Made by a program: the position numbers and the translations under genes
Virus record (IMG/VR): IMGVR_UViG_3300025789_000006
Coordinates: 1-53,156 of that record
Source: a virus
Length of the DNA stretch: 53,156 nt
Direction: 5' to 3' (one strand)
Notes under the pieces: generated by a model
Databases searched by the model: none
What the model saw: only the letters and a program-made list of their open reading frames with translations
What the model was told of the DNA's origin: nothing
Part shown: one piece after another, positions 3,674-49,207 of the stretch
How positions within the stretch are numbered: the first letter of the stretch is position 1
How the letters are laid out: the number at the start of each line of letters is the position of its first letter

Positions 3674-5605
3674 TTAAGCTCCTAGTTTAGATTTCAATTG
3701 ATTAACTTCTGCTGTCAATGCTTGGATAGATGCAATCATCAAGGGAATAAGTTCTGTATAGCGAACACCCAAATACCCTTCTATTTCACCTTCTTTTTTA
3801 ACTACATCCATTGCTTCTGGAACAACATTTTGAACAGTTGTTGCATCAACACCAACTTGTGGTTTGTTTTCTGCATCATTTTTCCAAGTGAATTTGATTG
3901 TTTTAATTTGAGCAATGTCAGTCAATGGGTCGGTATATGTCCCTGTGATGTTTTTCAGTTTGGGGTCGGAATATGATGTCCATGAAGTTGAACCCCAATT
4001 AAGTTGAACACCTGCACTGTTGGTGTTGTAAATAGTAAATGGGGGTGATGATGTGCTTGAACTGTTTCCAAGACGCAAATCCCACCATTTGCCAGATGCC
4101 GTATTATTAAAACGGCATACTGAATCCCAACTTGCATTACTGTTGTTTACATAAAGAGAGACATTTTGACCAGAGCATTGAAAGTTTGCACAATCTGTAT
4201 TACTTAAAACTGAAAGTTGTTGAGAAGGTGAACTTGTCCCGATACCTAGATAGCCTGCGCTAGTAAAGCGACCATATTCAGTGCCATTTGCATAAAAAGT
4301 CAATGGCACAGCACCGATTCCATAGATACGGTTTTCGGTTGCGCCACGCATTACTAATGCGCCATATCCTGAACCAGTTTGAATGCCAATACCGTCACTG
4401 CCTGATGCAGAGTAGACATTGAACTGTTGGTATTGACTACCGCCCGCACCAACAAGAACTTGTTGGGCGTAATTGATATACATTGCCTGTAGCTGTCCGG
4501 CTCCATTATTAACATAGAACCCAAGTTCGCCACGGTTAACTTGACCAGAGCCGATGAAGGTTCGGATGGAAGAAACATCGTAGTTGGTGGCGGTGTTGTA
4601 CCATTGAATCCGAGTAAGTTCTGACCCACTTGAGACACTACCCCACTGGGCCATGTTTCCGCTTACAGCAAGTTTTCCGTAGGTAGAAGAACCAACAATA
4701 CCAATGCCGACATTACCTCCATTGGGGGAAATGCCAATGTTTTGATATGCGGAACTGCCGTAGTCATATGCCTCCAATCGACCGTAAGTCGTTTCCCAAG
4801 ACAAGAAAATTCCCTTGCCCGTATAGGGCTGTAAACTGCCTTGAGCAACAACACTTGCGCTCGCACTAACGCCACCCGCAGATTGAATGTAGTAATTATT
4901 GTTGGATGGAGTCAATCCAACACCAAATTGACCTGTGGTTATAAAGCGACCTGCTTCTGCGCCGTTTGGTCTAAAAATTAAAGGATATGCACCACTTGTT
5001 CCAATAGCTAGAGATTGAGTGCTAGAGCCAGTATCAATGTATGAAGTACCACCGCTTTGGTACAACCGCATAACATCATTTGTACCATCATTAACTTTGA
5101 TGAAACCTGTTCCTGTAAGCGTTAATGATGTACCATTAAAAGTCAAATTAGCACTTGATTGAAAAGCGCTTGTTCCATTACCGTAAGGAATTTGGTTTGC
5201 AGTCAGCGAAGTCAAACCTGTGCCACCCGAAGCTACTGGCAAAGTTCCGGTTGTTAAAGCCGAGGTTGAAGTGGCATAAACAGCGCCACCAGAAGTAAAC
5301 GCAGTAAGTCCTGTACCACCGTTTGTGGTTGCCAATGTGCCTGCAACAGTCACAGCGCCTGTGGTTGCAGTGTTGGGGGTCAGGCCGGTTGTGCCAAAGC
5401 TGATTGAGGATACATTGATGTTGCCTGCTTTGGAAGCCAACACCTGCACATTACCTGATGCATCTTTGTAAAAAAGCTTGCCATCAAAGTAGTTCAATGC
5501 CAATTCAGCGCCCGACGCACTGCTTGTCAAGTTGGATGCAGAAGGCGTGTTTCCAGTTGAGCCACTGGCGTAAATTAGTATGGGGGTGTATCCGCTTTGT
5601 GCCAT
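3674..5605 (-). CDS. Tail fibre with C-terminal S74 intramolecular chaperone
   Basis: A 643-residue receptor-binding fibre. Residues 1-150 hold Gly/Thr-rich fibre repeats (FGTTGLTP...TLATTNGGTG) shared with the neighbouring 955-residue fibre. The middle is beta-rich with repeated GVGLTPS/GIGTSSPS-type units. From about residue 546 comes a peptidase S74 domain: the motif SDPKLK with the Ser and Lys of the autocatalytic pair five residues apart, then TDIAQIKTIKFTWK, VGVDATTVQNVVPEA, and a C-terminal coiled coil (LTAEVNQLKSKL). In this family the chaperone trimerises the fibre and then cuts itself off before the Ser. It is the second fibre gene of the late operon. Ribosome site TAAGGA. Confidence 0.88.
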   Translation of the reverse strand: MAQSGYTPILIYASGSTGNTPSASNLTSSASGAELALNYFDGKLFYKDASGNVQVLASKAGNINVSSISFGTTGLTPNTATTGAVTVAGTLATTNGGTGLTAFTSGGAVYATSTSALTTGTLPVASGGTGLTSLTANQIPYGNGTSAFQSSANLTFNGTSLTLTGTGFIKVNDGTNDVMRLYQSGGTSYIDTGSSTQSLAIGTSGAYPLIFRPNGAEAGRFITTGQFGVGLTPSNNNYYIQSAGGVSASASVVAQGSLQPYTGKGIFLSWETTYGRLEAYDYGSSAYQNIGISPNGGNVGIGIVGSSTYGKLAVSGNMAQWGSVSSGSELTRIQWYNTATNYDVSSIRTFIGSGQVNRGELGFYVNNGAGQLQAMYINYAQQVLVGAGGSQYQQFNVYSASGSDGIGIQTGSGYGALVMRGATENRIYGIGAVPLTFYANGTEYGRFTSAGYLGIGTSSPSQQLSVLSNTDCANFQCSGQNVSLYVNNSNASWDSVCRFNNTASGKWWDLRLGNSSSTSSPPFTIYNTNSAGVQLNWGSTSWTSYSDPKLKNITGTYTDPLTDIAQIKTIKFTWKNDAENKPQVGVDATTVQNVVPEAMDVVKKEGEIEGYLGVRYTELIPLMIASIQALTAEVNQLKSKLGA

Positions 5606-5614
5606 GTTTTTTCC

Positions 5615-8482
5615 TTAGAATGCGCCGCCTGCAATGCCACCTGTGATTGTGCCATTTGCCGCGTTACAAGTTATTGACGAGTTTACCAATTGTGGCAAAT
5701 TGCCGCTAGTCGCCGTTACGAAAGTTAGATAGTTTGTCGCGCCCGTAGAAGCCGCAGTCACCGCCGTGTTGACCGTGTTTGTGGCTCCCAAGTTGGCAAC
5801 AGTCGTTGTGCTAGAAACAACAAAAGGTGCGGTTCCAGTCGCCACCGTATTGGTCAATTGACCAGACATGTTCAAGGTTGTCACGCCTTGGATGTAACTG
5901 CTTGCCATGTTCAGACCGGCACTACCCCATGTGAGCAATCCTGTTGTACTATTGCCGGGAGGTAACAAATAACCGGCCCAGTTACCTGTCGCCGCACTTG
6001 CTGATGTCGAATAAATCCAACCTGCACCACCGGGAACAGCAGTCGCCAACAAATTGCCTGCGCTGTCTTGAACGGTGATATTGCCTGTTGAATCGTTGTC
6101 GATCACATAAGCTGTACCTGCCAAAATTGTGTTTTCAGCAGGCAGTTTGACTGTTTGTGTGTTTGTGCCGCTGAAGTTTTGGTAGAAGGTCGCAGTATTT
6201 GTCAGCGTTGTTGTGCCGCCTGCTGTGGGCACATTGGTGTAACCCGGCGCAAAGTTGTTGAACGATGCGATGGTGCTGACGGTACTTGCTGATCCAGTGC
6301 CGCCATTGGCTGTTGCAAGCGTTCCTGCCACAGTAATTGCGCCTGAGGTCGCGGTGGACGGTGTCAAACCTGTAGTGCCAAAACTGAGTGTGGTCACAGC
6401 CACGCCAGACAGAGTTGACCACTGTGGTGCTGTAGCCCCTGAGTTGACAGTCAAGATTTGTCCTGCAGACCCGATTGCTAGAGTGCTGAATGCGCTTGTG
6501 CCTGCACCATAAACCAAAGAACCAGTCGCAAGTGTTGAAAGACCCGTACCGCCGTTTGTGACAGTCAAAGAGCCAGACACATTGGTATTGGCAGTGCCAA
6601 GAGCCAAATTGCCAAACGCAGGAGCTCCTGCGCCGCCAGAAATTAAGGCATTTCCTGATGTTCCTGCGGCAGAATAGGCATGTGCAGTACCTGTGCCATA
6701 CCCAACACCGCCTGCGGTAGGCGTTGCTGTGCTGTTTGTACCGCCGTTTGCGATTGGCACGATACCAATAAGGCTCAATGCCTGCGCAGTTGTGGCGTTG
6801 GTCACAGCACTTGTGCCGTTGGCGTACATGAAACCAGTCAAACCGGTCACTGTGATGCTGTTAAATGCCTCAGAAGAGCTTCCCAAGACCTTTTCCCACA
6901 CAGAGCCGTTGAACACAGCCCAATCACCAACAGACCACAAGCTGATGCCATTCAAAGTGGTTGTACCTGCAGTCGAAACCACATAGTAGTAACCGTTTGT
7001 ACCGACTGATGAGGTCAATGTTGGGGTATTTGTCGCCGCATTCCATGTGCCTTGATAGGTAGTCGCGCCCGAAGCATTGGTGGTGATGCTTGTGATTTGA
7101 CCTTGAGCGTTGACCGTAATCTGTGGAATAGCCAAAGCAGACCCGTAAGTGCCTGCAGAGACGCCCGTATTTGTGATGGATGGTGTAATCGTGCCCGATC
7201 CATTGGTAATGGTGATGCCGGTGCCTGCGGTCAGCGTAGACAGCGTGTAGCCCGTACCATTACCAATTAGTAATTGTCCATTTGTAGGCGTTGTATTGAG
7301 CCCTGTACCGCCATTCGCGACAGGGGTTGTGCCCAAAAGCGTCAACAATTGAGCTGTGGTTGCGGCTGTATAGGCTGAAGTGCCGTTGGCGTAAGCAAAA
7401 CCTGTGAGTGTTCCTGCCACACCGGTACCGCCAGAGCCTGCATTGAGCGTACCGCCCAATACCACCGCGCTCGATGTCGGTGTATTTGGTGTCAAGCCTG
7501 TTGAGCCTGCGCTAAAAGTCGCAACACCTGAACCAGAGATCACTGAGCCCCAACCGCCGGTTGTGTAGGCTTCCAAAGTGCCGGTGTCGGTGTTGTAGCG
7601 GAACGCACCTTGTGCAGGTGTACCGCGCTGTGCTGTCGTGCCTGATGGCAACTGAACAAAGTTGGTGCCGGGCAGGGTTGGATTCGATGCAAGGCCAATC
7701 ACAGGCACACTGGTGCCGTTGGTGACCACAATTTGGTTGACTGTGCCTTGCACATTGGTCACAGAGCCACTGCCGGTGCCGATTGTTTGCCATGTGCTAC
7801 TTGCGTAGAACTCCATGGTCTGGGTATCGGTGTTGTAGCGCATGACGCCGTTGTTTGCCAAACGCTGTGCAGTGCCACCAGAAGGCAATTGAACGCCACC
7901 AGTGCCCGGCAAAACAGGATTTGACACCAGACTAATGGTTGGCGAGCCACCCACAGCATTGCCAAAAGCCACATTGATCTGATTGGTCGTACCACCGATG
8001 GCTGTTTGACTGAATGTCGAGCCATTGATGGTCATCAAACCAGTACCAGATAGACTGGACAGGTTTTGAAGGTTGGTGCTGAGGCCAAATGTGGGGTTTC
8101 CTGCGATGCCATCTGCGTTGGCGATGGTCATGCCTGCACCAACAGCCAAAAGCCTGTTGATGACCGTACTGGCCCCGTTCTTGACAATGATTCCGGTGCT
8201 CGCGGCGTTCAAACTTGCCGCCGGGCCCGTCATATTGATCTGCAGGGTGCTTCCTGCACCATTGTCAGTCAATGAAAGGCCAGAGGTGGCGCTCAAATAA
8301 CGAGCCTGAGTCAGCCCTGCAGTCGATCCAACGGTCAGGAAAGGGTAATTCAGCGCGCCGGCGCCTGCAATTGCGCCCGTGGTGGTCTGCGCGGTAACAC
8401 CGTTTTGAACGACAGGAACGAGCTCGGAGCCAGTCAAGGCTCCTGCTGTTGGTAGTTGGGTAATGGTTACTTGTCCACTCAT
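5615..8482 (-). CDS. Large repetitive tail fibre protein
   Basis: A 955-residue protein built almost wholly of Gly/Thr/Ala-rich fibre repeats. Units such as ANGGTGLNT, PIANGGTNST, VTNGGTGLST recur, as do AQRxxxxGxxRYNTDTxTxExY units (residues about 205-305) known from collar and side-tail fibres. A unit FGTTGLTPSTATSGAITVAGTLATANGGTG is nearly the same as one in the next fibre. The C terminus ends AGGAF, like NGGAF in the tail protein at 51838-53085. No chaperone domain is present, so it may be a shaft or need a separate tip. Start codon has only a weak ribosome site. Confidence 0.82.
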   Translation of the reverse strand: MSGQVTITQLPTAGALTGSELVPVVQNGVTAQTTTGAIAGAGALNYPFLTVGSTAGLTQARYLSATSGLSLTDNGAGSTLQINMTGPAASLNAASTGIIVKNGASTVINRLLAVGAGMTIANADGIAGNPTFGLSTNLQNLSSLSGTGLMTINGSTFSQTAIGGTTNQINVAFGNAVGGSPTISLVSNPVLPGTGGVQLPSGGTAQRLANNGVMRYNTDTQTMEFYASSTWQTIGTGSGSVTNVQGTVNQIVVTNGTSVPVIGLASNPTLPGTNFVQLPSGTTAQRGTPAQGAFRYNTDTGTLEAYTTGGWGSVISGSGVATFSAGSTGLTPNTPTSSAVVLGGTLNAGSGGTGVAGTLTGFAYANGTSAYTAATTAQLLTLLGTTPVANGGTGLNTTPTNGQLLIGNGTGYTLSTLTAGTGITITNGSGTITPSITNTGVSAGTYGSALAIPQITVNAQGQITSITTNASGATTYQGTWNAATNTPTLTSSVGTNGYYYVVSTAGTTTLNGISLWSVGDWAVFNGSVWEKVLGSSSEAFNSITVTGLTGFMYANGTSAVTNATTAQALSLIGIVPIANGGTNSTATPTAGGVGYGTGTAHAYSAAGTSGNALISGGAGAPAFGNLALGTANTNVSGSLTVTNGGTGLSTLATGSLVYGAGTSAFSTLAIGSAGQILTVNSGATAPQWSTLSGVAVTTLSFGTTGLTPSTATSGAITVAGTLATANGGTGSASTVSTIASFNNFAPGYTNVPTAGGTTTLTNTATFYQNFSGTNTQTVKLPAENTILAGTAYVIDNDSTGNITVQDSAGNLLATAVPGGAGWIYSTSASAATGNWAGYLLPPGNSTTGLLTWGSAGLNMASSYIQGVTTLNMSGQLTNTVATGTAPFVVSSTTTVANLGATNTVNTAVTAASTGATNYLTFVTATSGNLPQLVNSSITCNAANGTITGGIAGGAF

Positions 8483-9949: not shown

Positions 9950-10186
9950 TTACCACCCTTTGTGCTTAGGATTTTTGTGTTCTGCGGTGCTGATCTTTCC
10001 ACCCTTGGCATAACGACCTTTCAACAAAGCATGAATTGCTTTTGCTTCAGATGCGCCGACTTTTGGTTTTGAGCGATTGATTTCTTTGTCAACTGCCTCC
10101 TTGTTGTAAGAAGGTGCAGGTGCATCAATCAGCTTTTGTCTTTCTTTGGGCGACATATTGATTTTTGCCCATGGGTTGTATTCCAT
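9950..10186 (-). CDS. Small hypothetical protein, Lys/Gly-rich
   Basis: A 78-residue basic protein beginning MEYNPWAKINMSPKERQKL and ending YAKGGKISTAEHKNPKHKGW. The start at 10186 follows AAAGGAG. The KGGK and KHKG motifs resemble the C-terminal style of several neighbouring proteins (10198-10716, 11550-13355), suggesting a set of basic, Gly-rich virion-associated proteins. Function unknown. Confidence 0.55.
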   Translation of the reverse strand: MEYNPWAKINMSPKERQKLIDAPAPSYNKEAVDKEINRSKPKVGASEAKAIHALLKGRYAKGGKISTAEHKNPKHKGW

Positions 10187-10197
10187 AATTTTCTCCT

Positions 10198-10716
10198 TTA
10201 CCAACCGGGGCATTTCCAACGCTTGAGTGATGCTTTTGCCCGTTCAGCATCGCCTTTTGAATGTTCAACCACTCCCGACATTCTCGCGCAAAAACTGTCT
10301 TTACGCGAGCCGCCTTTGGGCTGTGGAGCTTTAAGGTGAGAACCCGTTTCGCGGTTGTACTTGGCGCGACCTTTTTCAGTCAATCCTGCGCCTTTTGATA
10401 CCGGCAATTTTTCTTTGCGACCAACAGAAAGAGAAGGGCCACCTTCTTTTTTCTTTACTGTCTTAGCAGACTGCTTGAAAGCATCTGCAGTGGGTGCTCC
10501 TTTGCTACCGGGCTTGCGCATCTTCTCGCCAGACCCATGGGCTATCCGCTCCTGTTTAGCATGGATGTTGGCATACAAACCGCCCTTAGCGAACTTCTTG
10601 CCTTCATCAGCCTTCACAAATTCTTTGCCAACTTTTTGAGGCACACCACCTACACCACCTTTGGTGTGAGCGGCGGCTTCCATCAGTCGGTGTTGTGCAG
10701 GTGATTTGCTAGGCAT
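10198..10716 (-). CDS. Basic protein with DUF6321-like C-terminal domain
   Basis: A 172-residue protein. Residues 1-110 are Lys/Gly/Ala-rich (MPSKSPAQHRLMEAAAHTKGG, KKFAKGGLYANIHAKQERIAHGSGEKMRKPG). The C-terminal 60 residues carry LTEKGRAKYNRETGSHLKAP, KDSFCARMSG and a final RWKCPGW, which I recognise as the DUF6321 pattern found in phages, function unknown. The start MPSKSP at 10716 was chosen because residues encoded further upstream look like read-through of the preceding gene. Two adjacent small genes share the KGG style. Confidence 0.7.
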   Translation of the reverse strand: MPSKSPAQHRLMEAAAHTKGGVGGVPQKVGKEFVKADEGKKFAKGGLYANIHAKQERIAHGSGEKMRKPGSKGAPTADAFKQSAKTVKKKEGGPSLSVGRKEKLPVSKGAGLTEKGRAKYNRETGSHLKAPQPKGGSRKDSFCARMSGVVEHSKGDAERAKASLKRWKCPGW

Positions 10717-11549: not shown

Positions 11550-13355
11550 TTAGCCTCTGCGCTTTTTCACAGGAGACATGGTCACAGATGTGATTGTCTT
11601 CGTGACGCTACCTTTTGGCGGCTTGCCTTCCAGAGGGCCCATCATTTTTGGCATATCGGACATGATTTTCTTGCCCAATCCACCCAACAATGCGGCTTTT
11701 CCACCTTTGGCATAGCCCTTGTGAACTTGGCTCATGGCTGTATCGTGGGCATCTTCAGCATCATCGGTGTGATAGTCGCCTTCCGTGAGGTGTTTGCCCT
11801 CAGGGTTAAAGAATTTCACGCGATGCTCGCCCCAGTCACGATCCTTGTACACCTTGGCTACATGGCCCTTAGGGCCGGTGTGGGTCTTAATCAAACGCAG
11901 ATTAGGTTTTTCTTGACCCCCATCTGCGTGGTGATGGACTTCGCCGCCCTTCTTAAAGGTTCCAGATTGCAAGCTGTTTGCCACAGGTTGGCTAACGAAA
12001 TGCTTGGGCATAGCCACAGGCTTGCCCATAGCATTCACATTACCCCCTGTGGCGTAGGCTTTTTTTGAGGCATGCCCTCCATGCTTATAGCCACCACCAT
12101 TAGCAAGCTTTACATCACCAGTTTTGGTGTTGGTTTTGCCTTTTGGAGTGGTGTCAGCAGGACGGTTTTCCCAATTGCCGCCTTCAACGGTGTCGCGTGT
12201 CTCGTACTTGTCGATTGCGCCGCCGTCAGCTTTGTGGTGCATCTTGTGATGAGCTTTGCCACCATGCTTGAAGCCACCTGCATTGCTCATGCGAACGCCG
12301 CCAGTGGCTTTGGAGCCGCTGAACTTGTCTGCAGTGTGCATGTCGGTGTCTTCGTAGTAGTGCTCATTGCCTTCAATGGTGCCACCCAAGCTGATCTTGC
12401 CGGAGTTCATGCTCTTCTTGGAGTCACTAGGGATAGTGTTTCCAGTAGAACCGCCTTCAGCAAAATGATGCTTTTTGTGAGCGTGACCGCCATGCTTATA
12501 GCCTGCGGCCTTACCCAACTTGACATCACCAGTCTTGCCACTGGTGTGATCGTGGTGCTCACCGTCGTGGATGTTGTTGACAAAGCGTTTTGCGTTGCCT
12601 TCAATGGTGGTTTTGGTTTCGTCGCGATCAATTTCGCCACCAGATGCATAGCTACCGCCCATGCACATCTTTTTGTGGTGAGCAAGCATGCGCTTGGCGT
12701 GAGCAGAACCGCCATCAGCCTTGCACATCTTTTCATAGTGCTTGCACATGGCTTTGTGGTGCTCATGAGAGCCCTCAGGATGACCAGAAGTCTTATGAAC
12801 TTTGCCACCGTGAGCGTGGTGAGCCATGCCACCATGCTTTTTGTGGTGAGCATGTGCCATGTCCAAAGCTTCGTGGTGGTGAAGTTCTTTTTCGAGCTTC
12901 TCGATCATCTTATGATCTGCAGAACCGCCCTTCTTCATGCCGCCAAGAGCTTTCTTGACCATCATGGCGCGAGCCATGCGTTGCTGAGGAGTCATTTGAC
13001 CCAAAGCCGCTTGACCCATAGGCTTCATGCCACCTGCAGGAGCACCCATTGCGCCGGGCATAGCACCGGGCATAGCGCCTCCCAAAGCCTTGTGAGCAAC
13101 TTTGCCACCCTTCTTGTACATCTGGGGGTTCATTGCCTTCACACGAGCCATCATGGAAGGCTTCTTGGGGGCCTTACCGGCCTCAGAAGCAAAAGCCTGA
13201 TGCATACCACCCATGGCATGGTGTTGCATAGCCTTGTGACCATGCTCAGAATGCTCTTTGTGGTGCTTGGCTTTGACTTTGCCACCTTTTTTGAGCTTCA
13301 AGGACACTGAAGGCTCATCGGTGTACATCTTCACCATTGGTTTGAATTCAGACAT
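11550..13355 (-). CDS. Histidine/lysine/glycine-rich repeat protein
   Basis: A 601-residue basic protein dominated by His, Lys and Gly. After MSEFKPMVKMYTDEPS comes a long run of HH, KHGG and HHK motifs (residues 25-300, for example AHHKKHGGMAHHAHGG). Three longer imperfect repeats of the form GDVKLxxxxGYKHGGHAxKKxxxxxGG lie near residues 285, 360 and 420, separated by TIEGN/TVEGG segments. Residues 500-560 are less biased (LIKTHTGPKGHVAKVYKDRDWGEHRVKFFNPEGKH) and could fold. The composition suggests metal binding or DNA neutralisation. It sits in the capsid gene cluster with a good AGGAGG ribosome site, so it is expected in virions. I know no named family. Confidence 0.75.
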   Translation of the reverse strand: MSEFKPMVKMYTDEPSVSLKLKKGGKVKAKHHKEHSEHGHKAMQHHAMGGMHQAFASEAGKAPKKPSMMARVKAMNPQMYKKGGKVAHKALGGAMPGAMPGAMGAPAGGMKPMGQAALGQMTPQQRMARAMMVKKALGGMKKGGSADHKMIEKLEKELHHHEALDMAHAHHKKHGGMAHHAHGGKVHKTSGHPEGSHEHHKAMCKHYEKMCKADGGSAHAKRMLAHHKKMCMGGSYASGGEIDRDETKTTIEGNAKRFVNNIHDGEHHDHTSGKTGDVKLGKAAGYKHGGHAHKKHHFAEGGSTGNTIPSDSKKSMNSGKISLGGTIEGNEHYYEDTDMHTADKFSGSKATGGVRMSNAGGFKHGGKAHHKMHHKADGGAIDKYETRDTVEGGNWENRPADTTPKGKTNTKTGDVKLANGGGYKHGGHASKKAYATGGNVNAMGKPVAMPKHFVSQPVANSLQSGTFKKGGEVHHHADGGQEKPNLRLIKTHTGPKGHVAKVYKDRDWGEHRVKFFNPEGKHLTEGDYHTDDAEDAHDTAMSQVHKGYAKGGKAALLGGLGKKIMSDMPKMMGPLEGKPPKGSVTKTITSVTMSPVKKRRG

Positions 13356-13367
13356 GACAGCCTCCTA

Positions 13368-14345
13368 TTAAGCTTGAGTCACGCCAAGAGCACCAGTGCG
13401 AGTTGCATTGGGGCCTGCGGCGATACCGGGCAGTGCGATGACAACCACCAAACGCTTGATGCCGTTGGTGGCGCTAGATGGGATGTAGGTGCCACGAACA
13501 TCACCGGTGATCGAAGTTGCAGGGTTGGTCATGTCAGCAACTGCAAGCGTACCTGCGTCGTTGGCAAGGGTATTGTTCCAACCTGCGCGAACAATGTAGC
13601 CTGCATCAAACACACGCAATGGCAAACCGAGTTTGTCGGTAGTACCAACAGTCACTGCGGCGCCAGAGCCACCACCTGCACCAACCACAGAAGCGATCTG
13701 ATAGAAAGCTTTGTTGCCGGGTGTAGTTGCGTTGGCAACTGTGGTGATTTGCTCAGTCATTGGTTGACCGTAGTAGTCATAGCCCGACACGGTGTAGGTG
13801 CGAGGTGTACCACCTGATGTCAAGAAGATGGAAACAGCGCGAGGCGTATCCAACTGAATGACAGTTGTACCGTCGGTGCGCACCACAGACTTGGCAGAAG
13901 TACCTGCAGTCAATGTCAATGCGCCTGCGGCGGCAGGAGTTTGCGAAGCGGCAATGTTTGCGGCTTGCAGAGTTTGAGGGATTACATCCCAGACATACTC
14001 ACGACCCAATGGGCCCACGCCAACTTCCATTGGAGATGGATCGCCAAGGCCAGAATTACCTGAGGCATAAATTGTGATTGAGCCAGTTGCAGACGAAGAT
14101 TGGCTCAAGGTATAAGTACCAGTGCCACCTGCGCCAGTCAAAAAGGCAGAAATGTAAGAATTGGCGGTGATACCAGTGCCGGAAACATATTGTCCCAGTA
14201 CCAAAGTGTCACCAGAGAGCATCGATGTCACAGTCATCGTGGTGCCAGTTACGGAACCAGTAATAACGGCTTCAGCGTTCGTGTTGTTTGTACCGATATA
14301 GCCTTGGGCAGTACCCAAGAACAAGTCATCACTAAATTGAGGCAT
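13368..14345 (-). CDS. Putative capsid-associated structural protein
   Basis: A 325-residue beta-rich protein directly downstream of the major capsid gene. Residues 27-93 form an inserted module ([15 protein letters not shown]...[12 protein letters not shown]...[17 protein letters not shown]) of a type that recurs in many unrelated phage structural proteins. The remainder ([43 protein letters not shown]) is typical of proteins encoded next to capsid genes and may form a decoration or collar layer. Strong AAGGAG site. Separated from the capsid gene by a strong terminator, so its message level may be set separately. Confidence 0.62.
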
Positions 14346-14416: not shown

Positions 14417-15331
14417 TTACATACCGGGCGTACCGTATGCACAGCGTGGGTCAGTAAAGCCCACAGCGTAGCGCTCAGTAGCCTTGTAACGCATAGTGTC
14501 AGTTTCGAAGTCGCCTTCCATGGTTTTCTCCAAACGACGACGCATCAAGAGCTTGAAGCCCTCAGGAGCGTCGGTTTGAACCCACCATGCAGTAGCGGAA
14601 GTCAAACGAGACAGAACAGCGGCACCTTCGTCAAGCAAACCGATAGATTTGATTGGGTTGATGTCGTTGTTTGCGTTACCAGTACGCAGAACAGATTTCA
14701 ACAACACTTCAGCTTGGAAGATATTGCCGGGAGCCACGATCAATTGACGGGGCACCAAGCGAATACGCTTGCCGTTGTTGTCCACTGCTTGACGGATTTG
14801 AATCAACATCTGTTCGAGAGATGTTTGAGACAACACGGCGGCAGTAGCCAATTGGTTGCTGAAGGTACCGTTGACGATTGGGTGTGCAGTGTTGATCAAA
14901 GACACACCGTCGCCGCCGGGATAGGCGCTGTTGAAGGCCGTATTGAGAATGTTCGCAGACAACAATTCTTTGGTTTCCACCAAGGATTGTGCCAAGTGAC
15001 GAGCATAAACTTGACCGATACGGATGTGGTCGCCGTCTTCAACGAGAACCTTGGTCAAAGCGAAGGCCAAGCCATACACTTTGTAGAGGTAACGCTGTAA
15101 GAACAACACGCCACCTTGCTGATAGGTCACTGGAGTACCGTCAGGCAATTGTGGAGCGGCGCCGAATCCATACAGGACAGGCTCTTCGTGGTAGTTACGA
15201 GGAATACCATCTTCCTCACGGAAAACGCGTGACCATTCGTCAGCGCGTTGATCATAGACTCCGTCGAAACATTCGTTGAGAATTGGTTCAACAATCGAAC
15301 GGAAATCCGTACTTCGCATTGGTGCGGCCAT
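14417..15331 (-). CDS. Major capsid protein
   Basis: A 304-residue capsid protein that builds the icosahedral head. It begins MAAPMRSTDFRSIVEPILNE and carries hallmarks I recognise from capsid proteins of aquatic podovirus-like phages: EEPVLYGFG, FLQRYLYKVYGLAFALTKVLVEDGD (a spine-helix-like region), NTAHPIVNGTFSN, and the C-terminal MEGDFETDTMRYKATERYAVGFTDPRCAYG. An HK97-type fold is expected. It lies between the decoration protein and a terminator, downstream of scaffold and portal, with an AAAAGGAG ribosome site. Length is normal for this group. Confidence 0.9.
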   Translation of the reverse strand: MAAPMRSTDFRSIVEPILNECFDGVYDQRADEWSRVFREEDGIPRNYHEEPVLYGFGAAPQLPDGTPVTYQQGGVLFLQRYLYKVYGLAFALTKVLVEDGDHIRIGQVYARHLAQSLVETKELLSANILNTAFNSAYPGGDGVSLINTAHPIVNGTFSNQLATAAVLSQTSLEQMLIQIRQAVDNNGKRIRLVPRQLIVAPGNIFQAEVLLKSVLRTGNANNDINPIKSIGLLDEGAAVLSRLTSATAWWVQTDAPEGFKLLMRRRLEKTMEGDFETDTMRYKATERYAVGFTDPRCAYGTPGM

Positions 15332-20833: not shown

Positions 20834-21025
20834 TTATCCTTTATTGCCTGAGTGCTTGTGCTTGGCTCGTGCAAGACTTTTTAAATTTAAGCCTTTGTGT
20901 GCCTTATGCGCATCAGGGCTGTGCAAGTGATGCTTGTGCTTGACATGGTCTTCAGGGTCATTGTGGTGCTCCAGTCCATGGAACTGGGCATAAAAATGAT
21001 GTGAGTCTAGTTTCTTCTTGCTCAT
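20834..21025 (-). CDS. Small histidine-rich protein
   Basis: A 63-residue protein with many His residues (DSHHFYAQFHGLEHHNDPEDHVKHKHHLHSPDAHKAH in two runs) and a basic end. The start at 21025 (MSKKKLDSHH) overlaps the end of the preceding gene. Composition echoes the large His-rich protein at 11550-13355 and would bind divalent metal ions in solution. Lies between the Gp88-domain protein and the portal. Function unknown. Confidence 0.65.
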   Translation of the reverse strand: MSKKKLDSHHFYAQFHGLEHHNDPEDHVKHKHHLHSPDAHKAHKGLNLKSLARAKHKHSGNKG

Positions 21026-22779
21026 ACTTCCCATCCTTCGTCATTTGATTTTTCTCTAGGCGCAGGCTCTTGTGGTTGGATATGCACCGTTCTGTTCTGC
21101 GGTATTGTCTCACCCAACTTAGGCTTGCCAGTCTTTGCCGATATCTCAGTGGTCGGCACACGGGCATACCTGCCGTCTTCTTTCTTCATCAACTGTGGAT
21201 CGTACTTCACAAAGAATCCGTTAGAGTCAATGTGAGCGTTGCCTTTCTCACCGATGGCCTTCTTGTTCTTAAGGCCCACGATCACGCCATGCTCGCCCTC
21301 AGGCTGAATGTCCAGTGGTCGGAAGTCATGGCTGTCACCGTTGATGACCTTGAACACTTTGCCAGTCTCATGATCAACGATCTGGTGGGGCAGATGCTCA
21401 TTGTGTGTGAAGGCCATCGCCACATTGTCGCCACCCTCCAACCGACGGCGCATCTGCTTCCAGTTGCTGTGTGGATTGTGGACATCTTGATCGCTCACAC
21501 CAGTGCTTGAGTAAGTGTAGTGGTGGTTGGGCGCGATGGGGTTGGTGTTGTTCTTGGTGTAGTCATAGAAGGTCACATCAGGGTGACCGTTGATGATGGC
21601 CTTGTGGACTCGTGGATTGATGTCCGACAGCACATTGAGGCGCACACCTAAGTGGTTGTTGTTCTGTGCCGCAATCGCTTTGGCGTCCTGAATCTCATCG
21701 TACAGCTTGACAGCAAACGAGTGAGGGTCGTTGATCATCGCCAAGGTCTTGTTGAGACTGTTCAGGCGTGGGCCCTTAAACTCTTCAAGGTTGGTACCGC
21801 CACCCAGTTTGAAGTAGTTGCCTGAGGTCTTGCCTAAGCACTCTTCCTTACACGATGCTGAGTTGGGGCAGGTGTTGAACTTGCCTTGACCAAACGCAGG
21901 AGCCAATGCCAGACCAGTCGTCTCGACACCGCGCCCATCGGGAAGCTTGATGGCCTCCTCGCCGCCCTTCTCAGACTTGATGAGCTTGGCGTTCTTGCCA
22001 AGCAAGTCCTTGGGCTTGTTGTCGCTTGTGCGGCCTACATGGTTGGACACCATCTCAGCGGCTCTCACGCTGTTCATCATGCGGTGATGTGCAGGCAGTG
22101 CCAAGTGATGAGCAATCGCCTCATCGAAGGCGCGAGCCAGACTGGCGATGCTTGGGCTACCGGCGTCATAGGGTGTGAAGCCATTGGGGGTCTTCACTGC
22201 ACCTTGAGTCGCAGGCATGATATTGAATACACGGCGCTTTGGTGGCTGACCACCATCACCCATGTGAGGAAAAGCATCACGGGCTTTCTTCTTCAGGAGC
22301 TCAAGTCGCATTGCACCACCTGAGGCCATGCCGGGCGCGGCTCCAGTGGCAGGTGCAGGAGGTGGGGCCATAGCCGCCAGAGCTTGGCCTTGAGGCGTCA
22401 TTTGAAGCATGTTGCCCATCTGTGCAGGAGCTCCACCGCTTGGGCCAGTGGGCGCGCCACCGGGAGCAGGAGGAGTGCCGGGCGTCGCACCGGGAGCACC
22501 GGGCTGACCGGGCTGAGGTTGACCGGGCACAGGTGCAGGGATTGGATTGAGTTGTTGACCGGGCTGTTGGGAGTTGGTGTCCACGCCACCGATTGGCATG
22601 CCTTTGTTGGTCGCTACGCCACCGATTGATGGGATGCCACCAATTGCTTTGGGGTTGGGGTTGACGAACATCTTGGGCTCCATGTCCAGAGCTTCATTCA
22701 CGCCGATGCTGTCCATGAGGTCGGGGTTTCTGTGCTGTGCCAGATTGACGCGCATCTGCGCTAGTGATGGGGTGTCCAT
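21022..22779 (-). CDS. Gp88-domain protein with Pro/Gly-rich N-terminal half
   Basis: A 585-residue protein. Residues 1-170 are low-complexity Pro/Gly/Ala/Gln (GQPQPGQPGAPGATPGTPPAPGG). Residues 170-290 include RLELLKKKARDAFPHMGDGG and a helical stretch. From about 285 a Gp88-like domain appears: RGVETTGLALAPAFGQGKFNTCPNSASCKEECLG with four clustered Cys, then SDINPRVHKAIINGHPDVTFYDYTKNNTNPIAPNHHYTYSSTG and HLPHQIVDHETGKVFKVINGDSHDFR. Gp88 proteins are phage proteins of unknown function. Placement between terminase and portal, with a long flexible N terminus, suggests a virion or packaging role here. Good GGAGG ribosome site. Confidence 0.68.
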   Translation of the reverse strand: MDTPSLAQMRVNLAQHRNPDLMDSIGVNEALDMEPKMFVNPNPKAIGGIPSIGGVATNKGMPIGGVDTNSQQPGQQLNPIPAPVPGQPQPGQPGAPGATPGTPPAPGGAPTGPSGGAPAQMGNMLQMTPQGQALAAMAPPPAPATGAAPGMASGGAMRLELLKKKARDAFPHMGDGGQPPKRRVFNIMPATQGAVKTPNGFTPYDAGSPSIASLARAFDEAIAHHLALPAHHRMMNSVRAAEMVSNHVGRTSDNKPKDLLGKNAKLIKSEKGGEEAIKLPDGRGVETTGLALAPAFGQGKFNTCPNSASCKEECLGKTSGNYFKLGGGTNLEEFKGPRLNSLNKTLAMINDPHSFAVKLYDEIQDAKAIAAQNNNHLGVRLNVLSDINPRVHKAIINGHPDVTFYDYTKNNTNPIAPNHHYTYSSTGVSDQDVHNPHSNWKQMRRRLEGGDNVAMAFTHNEHLPHQIVDHETGKVFKVINGDSHDFRPLDIQPEGEHGVIVGLKNKKAIGEKGNAHIDSNGFFVKYDPQLMKKEDGRYARVPTTEISAKTGKPKLGETIPQNRTVHIQPQEPAPREKSNDEGWEV

Positions 22780-27035: not shown

Positions 27036-27302
27036 TTACGCTTCCTCCACAGTGATTTTGTATTTCTTGCCAAGGTATTCTGCCTCGATGGTTTTCTTGG
27101 TGGTGAGCAGGTAGCCGCCCTCTGGGTGAAGGTCAGACTTTACTGTGCTTGTAGCCACGCCAGTCACTGGCAGGGCATGCTTGATGCTGTTGGCGATGTA
27201 GTCGCAGTAGGCCATTATGCTTGTGGCCTTGCCTGCGGTGTCGAGGGCAATTTCTACCACTTTGTTGGTGGACATCTTGATCATTGGTTTGAAGTCTTCC
27301 AT
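27036..27302 (-). CDS. Hypothetical early protein
   Basis: An 88-residue protein starting MEDFKPMIKMSTNKVVEIALDTAG, predicted mixed alpha/beta. Strong AAGGAGA ribosome site sets the start at 27302. The opening DFKPMIKM resembles the opening EFKPMVKM of the His-rich virion protein at 11550-13355. Function unknown. Confidence 0.6.
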   Translation of the reverse strand: MEDFKPMIKMSTNKVVEIALDTAGKATSIMAYCDYIANSIKHALPVTGVATSTVKSDLHPEGGYLLTTKKTIEAEYLGKKYKITVEEA

Positions 27303-38472: not shown

Positions 38473-39132
38473 ATGAGCTTTTATGTAGAAGACAAGGGTG
38501 GGAATTTCGAGCGAAGCCCTCCCGGTATGCACTTAGCAAGGTGCTACCGAATCGTGGACTTGGGCACACAAAAGTCCGAGTATATGGGTCAAACCAAGTA
38601 CCTCCACAAGATCATGATCGGGTGGGAACTTCACGGTGTAGACGACAGTGGCAAACCCCTCAAGATGATAGACGGGCGCCCCTTTGCAATCTTCAAAAAC
38701 TATACGCTTAGTTGGTCTGAGAAAGCAAATCTTCGCCTTGATCTACAGTCATGGCGCGGTAAGCCCTTCAGCCAAGAAGAGATGCGCAAGTTTGACCTAA
38801 AGAATGTTTTGGGTGCATGGTGCATGCTCAATGTGATCGAGCGCCAAGGTCAGAATGGCAACACCTACTCCAATGTGGACAGCGTGTCGCCAGTGCCCAC
38901 CATCATCAAGCAAAACGGCCTGCCAAATCCGGTCAACAAGAACGAGATGTTCAATCTGCAGGAGCCTGACTGGGTTCTGTTTGAAACATTCAGCGACAAC
39001 CTGAAACAAAAGATCATCAACTCGCCAGAGTTTGAAAAGGTCAAGAAGGCCGCTGACTACCAGAAGGACGCAAACGCTGAGGCCAACTCACCGAAGCCTG
39101 CGTTCGACGAAGACGACGACATCCCTTTCTGA
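38473..39132 (+). CDS. Single-stranded-DNA-binding-like protein with SSB-type tail
   Basis: A 219-residue protein, first of the rightward unit. Residues 1-160 are beta-rich (HLARCYRIVDLGTQKSEYMGQTKYLHKIMIGWELHG, then FAIFKNYTLSWSEKANLRLDLQSWRGK, KNVLGAWCMLNVIERQGQNGNTYSNVDSV), consistent with an OB fold of the phage SSB-like kind. The end is an acidic flexible tail finishing DEDDDIPF, matching the DDDIPF tip by which bacterial SSB recruits partner proteins. Ribosome site AAGGAG. It is followed by RtcB and a nuclease, both likely to act on nucleic acids it coats. Confidence 0.82.
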   Translation: MSFYVEDKGGNFERSPPGMHLARCYRIVDLGTQKSEYMGQTKYLHKIMIGWELHGVDDSGKPLKMIDGRPFAIFKNYTLSWSEKANLRLDLQSWRGKPFSQEEMRKFDLKNVLGAWCMLNVIERQGQNGNTYSNVDSVSPVPTIIKQNGLPNPVNKNEMFNLQEPDWVLFETFSDNLKQKIINSPEFEKVKKAADYQKDANAEANSPKPAFDEDDDIPF

Positions 39133-39134
39133 TC

Positions 39135-40331
39135 ATGAAACAAGTCATTCAAGAAGAGGGCTCGCGCCCAATCAAAATTTGGACTGACGATGTAGAAGGA
39201 GAGGCGCTAACTCAACTTAAGAATTTGGCGCGTCTACCTTTTATCAACCATCATGGCGTGGTTTGCATGCCTGATGTTCATGCAGGAAAAGGCTCTACCG
39301 TGGGCACTGTTATTGCCACCGAGAAAGCCATCATTCCTGCGGCTGTAGGTGTTGACATTGGTTGTGGCATGAATGCTGTCAGAACCTCATTAAAAGCTTC
39401 CGACTTGCCCGAATCCTTGAAAGATATTCGCGCCCAAATTGAGCGCGACATCCCGCTGGGTGCAGGTGGTCGTTTACAGCGAGATGAAGAGGTCAACAAT
39501 CGGTTAGGTCGCCTTCCTAAAACATCATTCAATCTTTGCGAAAACCTCAACGAGATTGCCGGTGATTACTGGAAAAAAGCCGCGCCCCAACTTGGCACAC
39601 TTGGATCAGGCAATCATTTCATTGAACTTTGCATTGATGAGAATCAAGATGTGTGGGTCATGCTTCACTCTGGCTCTCGTGGCATTGGCAACATGATTGG
39701 GTCGCACTACATCGAAAAAGCCAAGCGTCAAATGGAAAAATTCTTTATCAGCTTGCCTGATTCAGACTTGGCCTATTTGCCTGAGGACACTGAAGATTTC
39801 AATGACTACATGGAAGCCGTTCAGTGGGCGCAAGACTATGCTTTGGAAAATCGAAAGTTGATGATGGAAGTTGTTTTGGTAGCGCTCAAAAAGCATATTC
39901 CAAAAGAATTCACGATTACCCAAGAGGCGATCAATTGCCATCACAACTATGTCGAAAAGGAGCATCACTTTGGACGAAATCTCTGGGTTACCCGTAAAGG
40001 AGCTATTCGTGCGAGATCAGGAGACTTGGGAATTATTCCGGGTTCTATGGGTCAAAAATCGTATATTGTCCGTGGAAAAGGTGAGCTTCAATCCTATTGT
40101 TCTTGTTCGCATGGGGCAGGACGCAGTATGTCCAGAGCTGAGGCTAAAAGGCGTTTCAGCATTGATGACCTCATCAAGCAAACCGAAGGTGTCGAGTGCC
40201 GCAAAGATGCGTCAGTTATTGACGAAATTCCTAGTAGCTACAAAGACATTGATCAAGTCATGGCGAACCAAACAGACTTAGTCGAAGTGGTTCATATTCT
40301 CAAACAAGTCATGTGCGTCAAAGGAGCATAA
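39135..40331 (+). CDS. rtcB: RtcB-type RNA ligase
   Basis: A 398-residue RtcB ligase, which joins RNA ends with 2',3'-cyclic or 3'-phosphate to 5'-OH using GTP and Mn. Active-site residues are present: Asp74 and Cys77 in VGVDIGCGM, His161 in LGSGNHFIE, His178 in LHSGSRGIG, His269-His270 in CHHNYVE, and the GTP-accepting His326 in SCSHGAGRSMSR. PDVHAGKGSTVG (46-57) and GSMGQKSYIVRG (303-314) are also in place. Length is normal. It lies two bases after the SSB-like gene and one base before the nuclease gene. With phage tRNA genes present, tRNA repair is the favoured role. Confidence 0.95.
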   Translation: MKQVIQEEGSRPIKIWTDDVEGEALTQLKNLARLPFINHHGVVCMPDVHAGKGSTVGTVIATEKAIIPAAVGVDIGCGMNAVRTSLKASDLPESLKDIRAQIERDIPLGAGGRLQRDEEVNNRLGRLPKTSFNLCENLNEIAGDYWKKAAPQLGTLGSGNHFIELCIDENQDVWVMLHSGSRGIGNMIGSHYIEKAKRQMEKFFISLPDSDLAYLPEDTEDFNDYMEAVQWAQDYALENRKLMMEVVLVALKKHIPKEFTITQEAINCHHNYVEKEHHFGRNLWVTRKGAIRARSGDLGIIPGSMGQKSYIVRGKGELQSYCSCSHGAGRSMSRAEAKRRFSIDDLIKQTEGVECRKDASVIDEIPSSYKDIDQVMANQTDLVEVVHILKQVMCVKGA

Positions 40332-41126
40332 ATGACAACAATCATCGCAAGATCAGCAGAGAGTGTTCACTGGTACAAAGCCGAAGACGGCGCACCACAG
40401 TACACCGTAAAAGCAAAGGATGGCTCAGACCGTCCCACGACCCTCAGGGACGCGCGAAAGATGAACTTGGTACCTTCGGTCACCACCGTTCTGAAAATCG
40501 CCGCAAAGCCCGGTTTGGAGGTCTGGAAGCAGGAGCAAATGCTTCTCGCCGCCCTTACCCTGCCGCGCAAACCTGAAGAGTCTGAGAAGGACTTCATCGC
40601 CCGTATCGTTGCCGACTCAAAAGAGACAGGCAAGCAAGCGGCTGAACTGGGCACACGCATCCATGAATCCATCGAGGCATGGTACGAGGGTGTGCGTGGT
40701 GACATCTTTCACCGTGAGATTGCTGAGGCGTTTGAAGAAAAAGTCTTCATCCACTTTGGCACTCACCCACACCAACCATGGCTCACAGAGCGGTCTTTTG
40801 CAAGCCCTCTGGGGTATGGCGGCAAGATCGACTTGTACTGCAAGCCGGATCAGCATGCGCCCACCGGCATCGTACTTGACGCCAAGTCAAAAGACTTTGA
40901 TGAGGACGACAAGGTCGAGGCATACGATGAGCACCTGCTACAGCTTGCGGCCTACCGCCATGGTTTGGGACTGCCTCACGCTCGTTGCGCCAATGTCTTC
41001 GCATCACGCACTAAACCCGGTCTGATCAAGATCGTGGAATGGTCTGAGGAAGACTTGACGCGCGGGTGGGAAATGTTCAAGTGCCTGTTGCAATACTGGC
41101 AACTCAAAAATCAATTTGGAGTATGA
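40332..41126 (+). CDS. PD-(D/E)XK nuclease, RecB/Cas4-like
   Basis: A 264-residue nuclease. Pattern: GTRIHESIEAW (His111), GYGGKIDLYC (Asp167), VLDAKSKD (Asp183-Ala-Lys185 in place of E-x-K), and HLLQLAAYRHGL (Gln204 and Tyr208, the QxxxY motif of RecB-type nucleases). Such exonucleases process DNA ends for recombination or degrade host DNA. It starts one base after the rtcB stop and the next gene overlaps its stop. Confidence 0.85.
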   Translation: MTTIIARSAESVHWYKAEDGAPQYTVKAKDGSDRPTTLRDARKMNLVPSVTTVLKIAAKPGLEVWKQEQMLLAALTLPRKPEESEKDFIARIVADSKETGKQAAELGTRIHESIEAWYEGVRGDIFHREIAEAFEEKVFIHFGTHPHQPWLTERSFASPLGYGGKIDLYCKPDQHAPTGIVLDAKSKDFDEDDKVEAYDEHLLQLAAYRHGLGLPHARCANVFASRTKPGLIKIVEWSEEDLTRGWEMFKCLLQYWQLKNQFGV

Positions 41127-46624: not shown

Positions 46625-49207
46625 TTACTTCGTTCCCTTTTTTATGTAATCAAGGGGAGACTTAGCCTTCGGTGGAATCTTAGACAGAGGAGCGTTGCGC
46701 TTATGAGCTCGCAACTTTTCACGCATGCCGTCCAAAATTTCTGCCCCTCGCTTATTATCTCCTTGTCCAAGCGCCGTGACAAACGCCGCAGGGAAGACAT
46801 ACTCGCCGTCAGCAATCTTGGCAGGCACAGGATTGGCTCCTGCAACGCCACCATCTGCATGACGATGTACGCGGTGAGGCACCTTGGTTCTAAAGCCATC
46901 AAGCACCTGCTTACCGGCCTTGCTTGAACCGTCGCCCAGTGCAGATACTGTCTCAGCATCCATCACATAGTCGCCGTCGTGAAGCATGGCAGGAATGTCG
47001 TCAGACTGTCCAGTACCACCACCGCAAGCGTAATACCCGGTCACACCAGTGATGAACTCAGGGTGGTGACCTTTGGGTGTTGCGCTATGGTAAGCCGCAG
47101 GCAATCCACCGCCTTCAGCATGGCCTGTGATGCCTTGATAAATGTGAGACAAGGGCGCATTGGTAAAATGTTGGCCTGAACCGCGATTCACCAAAATCTC
47201 AGGTTGACTGCATGCGAACTTTGGTTCGTATTTTGAAATGTCAAAAGCGTCATTTTTGGATTTTGTAGCCTCAGCAGTGGCGTCTTTAATGGCTTGAATC
47301 TTTTTGCAGATGCAAGTTTCTTCAGAGTCTTCAGTGCCACCACCAGAGAAATGATGGACTTGACCACCAGAGGCCAGACAGCCATATCCCAAACCTTTAT
47401 CAGGAGAGATTTGGCAGGCCATCACGCGCTGATTGACAGTGCCCAAAAGATTGCTTGAATCGCCAACTGCATTGGTAGTCAACTTAGCCAAGTTAGCAAT
47501 TTTGGCCTTACCACCACTTGCGGCATGGAACAAACCACCCTCGGCAAGGCAACCGTAGCCAAGACCTTTGCAAGGTGAAATTTGACATGCGGCAACTTTG
47601 CCGCTTGCGTTGCTCAAGCCACCAATGTTTTCACCGATGTTGCCAGTACCAAGCTTGGCAAGTTCAAGCGCTTTCTTAGCGCCACCGGCCTTCAATAGGT
47701 TGGCAACACCGCATAAGGCTGATGGGCCACCTTGACCTTTAGCAGAACCTTGAGCAGGCTTCTTGACAGGCTTGTGTTTTGCAGGCTTTTTGCCTGTTGG
47801 GCCTTTTGATTTCTTAGGCTTGCACTTGTCTGTACAGCAACATTGATCGCAACAGCAAGTGTCACAGCAACAAGTGTCGCAACAGCACATGTCGCAACAG
47901 CAGGTGTCGCAACAGCACATATCACAGCAACACATATCACAGCAACATGTATCGCAACAGCAAGTATCGCAACAGCAGGTATCACAGCATGCACAGCAAT
48001 CTGTACAGCAGGTATCACAGCAAGCTGTACAGCAATCTGTACAACAAGTCGTGCAATCGCATCCACAGCATGAAACACAGCAACCTACACAGCAACCCTC
48101 AGGGGTGCAGTCAGAAGAACATGGAGTTTCACAGCTTGGGGTGCAACCGCAAGGCAAGCAAGGTTCGCATGGTGTGCAGGTATTGCATGGAGCGCAGGGA
48201 TCAACACAGCATGGCAAGCATGTACAAGTAGTGCAAGTTGGGATGCAAGATGCACAGGTACAGCAGAAGCAAGGCACACAGCAGAATGGCGAGCAAACGC
48301 CGCATGCTAGGCCACCACTGCAGAATGTTGGGGTGCAGAAATTAGTTGTGCAAACACCGGGTGTGCAGGCGCCGGGTGTGCAAAGGCTTGGCATACAGCC
48401 TGTTGGAAGGCAAGTCGTGCCGGGCTGTGTGATGCAAGTTTGACCGGGGTTATAGCCTTTGTCACAGCAAATTGGTTGACAAACATCACATCCGGTTTGT
48501 GCGCATGGGCCAGAAATACAAGAGGTGTTGGGTTGGGTTATACATTGCTGACCGGGGCCATAACCCTTATCACAGCAACATACGCCGCATGTGCAAGGCA
48601 AACATCCGCATGCAGGCCCTTCAATACATGTTGTAGGTGTACACATGGGGGTGCAGGCGCATGCCATGCAAACACCACAAGGCTGACCAATGCATGTGCC
48701 GGGGTTACCTATGCAAGTGCCGGGATTGTATGGATTGTGACCGCAGTCAAAACTGCATCCAGAGGTGCAAACGCATGAACAGCATTCCATGCAACCTGCA
48801 CAGCACAAACCGCTTTGGTTTGTTGATCCAATGCATTGTTCACAGCCGCCGTAACAAGTATTGCAGGTATTGGCACATTCTCCAGTACCGCAATTATCTC
48901 CAACACAAGAAATACAAGATTCACATCCTACAGCGCAAGCGACGCATCCTGCCGAGCACAGGAAACAGGCAACACTGTCTACCGCGCATACTGCGCAAGC
49001 CGCATCACCTAAAACGCACAAGAAGCTTGTTGCGCCACCCGTGGCGACATCCAAGGCCAAGCTTGCAAGGGCTCCAATACCGCCGCCACCACCATAATGA
49101 TGAGCGACTTGACCGCAATTCAGAATGTCATCTGCTTGAGGTTGTGGGTCGTGTAATTGCGCGCCCTGATTGCGATTGCTATAACCGCCAAAAATTATTT
49201 TGCTCAT
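46625..49207 (-). CDS. Giant cysteine-rich internal virion protein
   Basis: An 860-residue protein. Residues 31-462 are extremely Cys-rich: I count about 131 Cys there, as CxxC, CC and finally about ten tandem copies of a five-residue CCCDx unit (x is Thr, Met or Gln). A Lys/Pro-rich hinge follows (KKSKGPTGKKPAKHKPVKK). The C-terminal half has two AC-Q-ISP-KGLGYGCL units (near residues 545 and 605) and two units of the form IPAMLHDGDYVMDAETVSALGDGS...LDGFRTK / VPAKIADGEYVFPAAFVTALGQGD...LDGMREK, which I recognise from internal or tape-like proteins of aquatic podoviruses. That shared frame shows the Cys region is truly coded. No relative known to me has such a domain. Confidence 0.82.
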   Translation of the reverse strand: MSKIIFGGYSNRNQGAQLHDPQPQADDILNCGQVAHHYGGGGGIGALASLALDVATGGATSFLCVLGDAACAVCAVDSVACFLCSAGCVACAVGCESCISCVGDNCGTGECANTCNTCYGGCEQCIGSTNQSGLCCAGCMECCSCVCTSGCSFDCGHNPYNPGTCIGNPGTCIGQPCGVCMACACTPMCTPTTCIEGPACGCLPCTCGVCCCDKGYGPGQQCITQPNTSCISGPCAQTGCDVCQPICCDKGYNPGQTCITQPGTTCLPTGCMPSLCTPGACTPGVCTTNFCTPTFCSGGLACGVCSPFCCVPCFCCTCASCIPTCTTCTCLPCCVDPCAPCNTCTPCEPCLPCGCTPSCETPCSSDCTPEGCCVGCCVSCCGCDCTTCCTDCCTACCDTCCTDCCACCDTCCCDTCCCDTCCCDMCCCDMCCCDTCCCDMCCCDTCCCDTCCCDQCCCTDKCKPKKSKGPTGKKPAKHKPVKKPAQGSAKGQGGPSALCGVANLLKAGGAKKALELAKLGTGNIGENIGGLSNASGKVAACQISPCKGLGYGCLAEGGLFHAASGGKAKIANLAKLTTNAVGDSSNLLGTVNQRVMACQISPDKGLGYGCLASGGQVHHFSGGGTEDSEETCICKKIQAIKDATAEATKSKNDAFDISKYEPKFACSQPEILVNRGSGQHFTNAPLSHIYQGITGHAEGGGLPAAYHSATPKGHHPEFITGVTGYYACGGGTGQSDDIPAMLHDGDYVMDAETVSALGDGSSKAGKQVLDGFRTKVPHRVHRHADGGVAGANPVPAKIADGEYVFPAAFVTALGQGDNKRGAEILDGMREKLRAHKRNAPLSKIPPKAKSPLDYIKKGTK
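47833..47997. repeat. 15-bp tandem repeats coding the CCCDx units
   Basis: About 11 imperfect copies of a 15-bp unit (plus-strand form CAACAGCAnRTRTCR) within the cysteine-rich gene. Third-position differences with conserved amino acids suggest selection for the Cys-Cys-Cys-Asp pattern rather than very recent slippage. Confidence 0.85.

Follow-up and report, generated by a model that had tools for sequence, protein, structure and literature searches.

The closest described counterparts of the protein considered here are the internal head proteins of phage T4, which are basic and variable; one of them, IPI, is ejected and is a small, folded inhibitor, and for another, IPIII, the first ten residues suffice for capsid targeting (PMC9026906). 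A published proposal of a different kind, the iron-in-tail-fibre Trojan Horse or Ferrojan model, rests on the HxH motif (PMC11705849). In cyanophages and pelagiphages, capsid-cluster proteins with DUF6321 or phrog_16028 modules are basic, carry GG motifs and adjoin scaffold or capsid genes. Our search of the literature on lysine/glycine-rich virion proteins returned nothing. Here we describe a lysine- and glycine-rich protein, characterized by KGG repeats, from an IMG/VR virus record 53,156 bases long, the whole of which is referred to below as the window.

The gene lies on the minus strand, exactly at the bounds given by an earlier sequence-only reading, which named no strand. We regard it as real because the ribosome binding site AATAGGAGGCTGTC precedes its ATG and because over 500 viral loci conserve the protein sequence; the plus-strand ORF that overlaps it (12072-13310, 412 aa) seems to be a side effect of composition. 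The 601 residues include 89 G, 84 K, 60 A and 58 H (9.7%), with 27 non-overlapping GG and a net charge of +41 (K, R, D and E counted). Against same-composition shuffles, HH (14 observed, 5.5±2.2 expected) and KHGG (4 observed, 0.18 expected) are far above chance, consistent with the dense HH/KHGG motifs that the sequence-only reading had noticed; HxH is at chance level (8 against 5.5±2.2). The beyond-chance hallmark of the protein is, however, not histidine but the motif [FYM][KA]xGGx[VAIS], found 9 times as against 0.07 in shuffles (maximum of 2 across 5000 shuffles). The three longer repeats reported earlier are also present, each terminating in ..TG[DG]V[KR]..NxGG[FY]KHGG.

Table 1. Coordinates of the KGG-repeat gene, its segments and other genes of the window discussed in the text.
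Feature	Position	Strand	Basis
KGG-repeat protein, 601 aa	11550..13355	minus	ORF, ATG at 13355
Ribosome binding site AATAGGAGGCTGTC, 5' of the ATG of the KGG-repeat gene	13356..13375	minus	sequence
Conserved N-terminal peptide, aa 1-27 (MSEFKPMVKMYTDEPSVSLKLKKGGKV), candidate targeting tag	13275..13355	minus	median pairwise identity 0.89
Helical segments, aa 115-169	12849..13013	minus	AlphaFold pLDDT about 70-90
His/Cys-rich helical hairpin, aa 196-231, part of His-rich members only	12663..12770	minus	AlphaFold pLDDT >85
Three long repeats, aa ~246-290, 326-366, 386-427, predicted disordered	12075..12620	minus	sequence and AlphaFold
Conserved linear motif, aa 425-472 (..YATGG..PVANSLQSGTFKKGG..), 48 aa, predicted disordered	11940..12083	minus	median identity 0.77
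phrog_7884 domain, aa 491-544, four strands and a helix	11724..11885	minus	profile E 8e-14; AlphaFold
Small gene (YAKGG..) with LLKGRY module	9950..10219	minus	ORF list, sequence
KGG-type neighbour with phrog_16028 and DUF6321	10198..10716	minus	likely ATG at 10716
Cement-like position beside the capsid gene, near-constant synteny partner	13368..14345	minus	100/114 loci
Major capsid protein	14417..15331	minus	annotation of the window
Scaffold-like gene	16522-17487		gene scan
His-rich small ORF, 66 aa, 21% His	20834-21034	minus	ORF list
88-aa protein unrelated to the KGG-repeat protein, starts MEDFKPMIKM, own ribosome binding site	27036..27302	minus	sequence
Cys-rich protein, 860 aa, 16% Cys, runs such as CCCDTCCCDMCCC	46625-49207	minus	sequence

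Relatives of the protein were recovered at 33 viral loci in a first scan and at least 578 in a profile scan, and are abundant in freshwater phage contigs; the one GenBank phage found to encode such a protein is MW202545 from Manatee Spring. Four contigs from genome collections carry it: one in a MAG labelled Akkermansia and three in freshwater betaproteobacterial MAGs, the latter pointing to, without proving, Burkholderiales-type hosts. A relative at L038:3649-4314 lies on a contig binned as Akkermansia muciniphila, perhaps through a binning error or by virtue of another host.

The genes of the window are arranged in the order terminase, Gp88-like, His-rich 66-aa ORF, portal, GroES, scaffold-like, capsid, cement-like, KGG-repeat, phrog_8198 protein, DUF6321 protein and tail genes. 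The earlier placing of a repeat protein in the capsid cluster is borne out, the protein also being basic, and the search for homologues beside capsid genes that had been suggested with it located the major capsid gene in 106 of the 114 KGG-repeat loci and the cement-like neighbour in 100. Hence, a role in the virion is reasonable, and the charge makes contact with packaged DNA possible. The capsid proteins of the relatives are 90–96% identical to that of the window as against 33–50% for the KGG-repeat proteins (minimum and median in each case), so that the latter constitute the fast part of a slow head. In the closest cultured phages, namely Caulobacter phage RW and others with a capsid protein 78% identical, no KGG-repeat protein was found in the head region; thus, it is dispensable at the lineage level. 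The more distant DSL-LC04 and Planktothrix phages encode, downstream of the capsid gene, basic proteins of 75–300 aa in which a few GG motifs occur, which we take as a likeness only and not as homology. Next to the tail genes, the window itself encodes a further KGG-type protein with DUF6321 and phrog_16028 (Table 1), relatives of which are flanked by the scaffold and capsid genes in HTVC168P and Bylgja, both Pelagibacter phages; these proteins share the basic character, GG motifs and gene neighbourhood of the 601-aa protein but differ in their modules, neither of which it possesses. Elsewhere in the mostly minus-strand genome, an RtcB-like RNA ligase (39135-40331, plus strand; phrog_1075, E 1e-154) is the middle one of three adjacent plus-strand genes of at least 200 aa (38473-41126).

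Conservation within the protein is uneven. The median pairwise identity is highest in aa 1-27 and the 48-aa core motif (Table 1), followed by the phrog_7884 domain (0.74), the linker that separates these two segments (0.63) and the tail (0.52); at GG positions, the reference residue is retained at 0.84, compared with 0.57 for other residues. Across the family, conservation thus extends to the basic charge, a KGG density of one GG per ~24 aa, the core motif and the N-terminal decapeptide (FKPMVKM), in which F4, P6, M7, V8, K9 and M10 are invariant. An AlphaFold model built with 67 sequences places 395 of the 601 residues at pLDDT <50, i.e., two thirds of the chain are predicted to be disordered, including most of both aa 1-27 and aa 425-472. 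High conservation of short segments predicted to be disordered is as expected of docking motifs.

The one confidently predicted globular unit (aa 486-545; mean pLDDT 88 when folded alone) corresponds to the phrog_7884 domain, with most of the profile covered (positions 9-61 of 66); it occurs in 28 of the 68 aligned members. Foldseek returned no match for it at E 0.001 or better, and the AP2-like (6sy0, VIA-align Z 6.7, rmsd 5.3 over 63) and MmoD-like (6d7k, VIA-align Z 6.6, rmsd 2.1 over 56) folds, being tied in the noise range, were not used. The genomic contexts of the domain are more telling. In the T7-like Pseudomonas phage CHF1, it is not a module of a head-cluster protein as in the window but a complete stand-alone 66-aa early gene (CHF1_02, E 2.6e-25), lying among the first genes, after the terminal repeat and before the RNA polymerase gene; likewise, it precedes the RNA polymerase gene in phage Alpheus. 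In T7-like phages, the region before this gene is the one read first by the host polymerase. At the locus L169 of a T4-like phage, by contrast, the domain forms one module of a 663-aa polyprotein, whose gene is directly followed by the head maturation protease, scaffold and major head genes, the position at which T4 has its prohead core genes. Thus, one kind of phage uses phrog_7884 as a first-expressed protein, and two others use it as a head-cluster module. Other modules are also exchanged: that of the small LLKGRY gene of the window is fused to the KGG-repeat protein in L024, L027 and L112. None of the optional modules has a Pfam match; LLKGRY shows weak matches only (E 0.005–0.04) to small-gene regions of Rhizobium and Roseobacter phages, and searches with the module of L037 returned none.

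The N-terminal decapeptide, MSEFKPMVKM, recurs in near-identical form (MEDFKPMIKM; common element FKPM[VI]KM) at the start of the unrelated 88-aa protein of the window (Table 1). It is kept in the relatives of the latter from L185 and L186, the second of which is 57% identical overall, and is absent in those from L187–L191. Its presence at the head of two unrelated proteins, taken together with the T4 IPIII precedent, suggests by analogy that it is a putative head-targeting peptide.

What we observe is thus a gene, its conservation pattern, predicted disorder, sharing of modules, synteny, and the early-gene and prohead-gene contexts of one of those modules. Based on the synteny with the capsid gene, the conserved segments and prevalence of predicted disorder, the phrog_7884 contexts, the module swaps and the decapeptide on a second protein, we tentatively propose, as a reading a little short of an even chance, that the KGG-repeat protein is a capsid-internal carrier working like the T4 internal head proteins. 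Briefly, the decapeptide and the 48-aa core motif would dock it to conserved parts of the head during assembly, and the KGG-rich linkers would keep the chain unfolded and able to pass the portal. The carrier would thus be built into the head and leave it with the DNA, and small modules, here the phrog_7884 domain, might be the cargo, acting in the host as soon as infection begins. Histidine would fill the linkers, and a helical hairpin that is optional, in a clade-specific manner. The phrog_7884 cargo cannot be the whole function, given its restriction to fewer than half of the aligned members, and both the Caulobacter cousins that have no KGG-repeat protein in the head region and the relatives of the 88-aa protein from which the decapeptide is absent count against the proposal.

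Several alternatives deserve to be weighed against it. The sequence-only reading had offered metal loading as a possible function, besides neutralization of packaged DNA. In the metal reading, His tracts would hold Fe, Zn, Ni or Cu in the particle for entry via siderophore receptors or for storage. The abundance of His, the excess of HH and the placement of H197, H200, C204 and C211 of the window protein on one face of the predicted hairpin (face analysis) speak for it, but comparison with relatives makes it distinctly improbable. The His content of 77 distinct members is bimodal: 26 have 1.2–2.8%, 51 have 6.2–11.6% and none lie between, and the drop occurs without loss of the rest. Neither GG density (0.041±0.004 per residue) nor net charge per residue varies much. 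No His is invariant among the 68 aligned members; many of those in the window protein sit in insertions absent from relatives, and in relatives His is mostly replaced by K, A, S or gaps. The hairpin Cys residues are likewise not kept. On a protein tree built without the His-containing columns, the His-rich state requires three changes, namely one main clade and two reversals (L027 and L037), as against seven on the capsid tree, which fits gene exchange between phages. An effect of the sample was rejected, as both classes occur under the same metagenome prefixes (e.g., 3300032236, 3300032225 and 3300032223), and no neighbouring gene shifts its own His content much with the class. In a separate observation, the gene just downstream (L112:11470-11889 and equivalents) is of a 139-aa type in 6 of 12 His-poor versus 0 of 21 His-rich loci (Fisher p 8e-4, uncorrected and with ancestry not controlled).

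The metal theme fares no better when extended to other proteins. The likeness to the HxH iron sites of tail fibres (PMC11705849) is one of histidine content only: the KGG-repeat gene adjoins the capsid gene, its HxH is unenriched and its His is not conserved, and the tail fibre genes of the window (3674-5605 and 5615-8482) encode only 0–0.1% His. The Cys-rich protein that had been drawn into the theme shares just its C-terminal ~200–260 aa (SDDIPAMLHDGDYV.., with a weak tape-measure match) with 11 relatives, most of which have Cys-free sequences in place of its N-terminal part; 8 of the 10 readable orthologues have 0–1.4% Cys (overall range 0 to 15%). Nor does Cys-richness coincide with the His-rich state: His-rich KGG-repeat members (L062, L087 and L095) are paired with Cys-poor orthologues. 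The smaller His-rich protein does exist, at 20834-21034 rather than the 20834-21025 reported earlier; its few relatives have 9–12% His and a common FYHQFH..HHNDP, and it was detected in 7 of 114 loci, many of which do not reach that far. Hence, the bimodal His, chance-level HxH, nearly His-free tail proteins and non-conserved Cys-richness lead us to reject metal loading as a family function. As judged from these sequences, histidine is a trait of some relatives only and not the point of the KGG-repeat protein. More generally, when a single genome shows a striking His- or Cys-rich composition, this can prove on comparison to be no more than a peculiarity of its clade.

A better contender, if on balance unlikely, is a head-building or DNA-condensing protein that delivers nothing: a disordered basic chain would line the capsid inside or lie on the packaged DNA, with the [FY]xxGG motifs, which are regularly spaced, binding repeated sites on the capsid or DNA. 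The net charge of +5 to +10 per 100 residues and the GG density held by all 77 members, the preferential conservation of GG, the constant place beside the capsid gene and the similarly placed smaller proteins of the DSL-LC04 and Planktothrix phages would all suit such a role. This leaves the recurrence of phrog_7884 as a stand-alone early gene unexplained, and by simple arithmetic one chain would neutralize little of the ~106,000 phosphates unless present in many hundred copies. The GG motifs invite a further comparison: the core precursors of adenovirus are cleaved at (M/L/I)xGG-X, and the repeated hydrophobic-x-x-GG sites, with GG as the best conserved feature, might mark a precursor cut by a protease into many peptides. 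However, no prohead, head or cysteine protease was recognized among the scanned genes of the window and the likeness to adenovirus is one of the site only, making this very improbable. The placement of the gene in an assembly cluster with GroES and a scaffold-like gene could also indicate a chaperone-like assembly aid or scaffold helper absent from the finished particle; yet the window has a separate scaffold-like gene and a helper would have no need of early-gene modules, and we consider this improbable as well.

Returning to the capsid-internal carrier, a bolder version of it can be framed for freshwater Burkholderiales-type phages as a whole, wherein the disordered KGG chain would be an exchangeable delivery string of the capsid, with the decapeptide, grafted onto an unrelated protein as well, sending proteins into the head, and with small host-takeover domains, which other phages have to express from their first genes, being pre-loaded and injected. 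We regard this generalization as unlikely, slightly more so than the condensing protein. If the carrier reading is true, it would mean: (i) a second way, alongside the T4 internal proteins, for tailed phages to introduce basic proteins and takeover domains into cells; (ii) a short peptide tag for loading phage heads; (iii) a first handle on phrog_7884 as a domain common to virion and early genes.

How far, then, does the parallel with T4 extend? The KGG-repeat protein has no detectable homology to the T4 internal proteins, and searches by sequence found no solved relatives of it. Its N-terminal region has no LxE or IxE site, the only one in the protein being near aa 523; together with the lack of a recognized prohead protease among the scanned genes, this indicates that the T4 maturation route is not copied, and on these three grounds we do not file it as a member of that group. 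Moreover, T4 uses separate small proteins where the window encodes a single long KGG-linked chain. Nevertheless, in its architecture it appears to resemble IPI, IPII and IPIII (PMC9026906): like them, it would combine a short conserved N-terminus, a basic variable body and a small alpha/beta domain in a head-gene neighbourhood.
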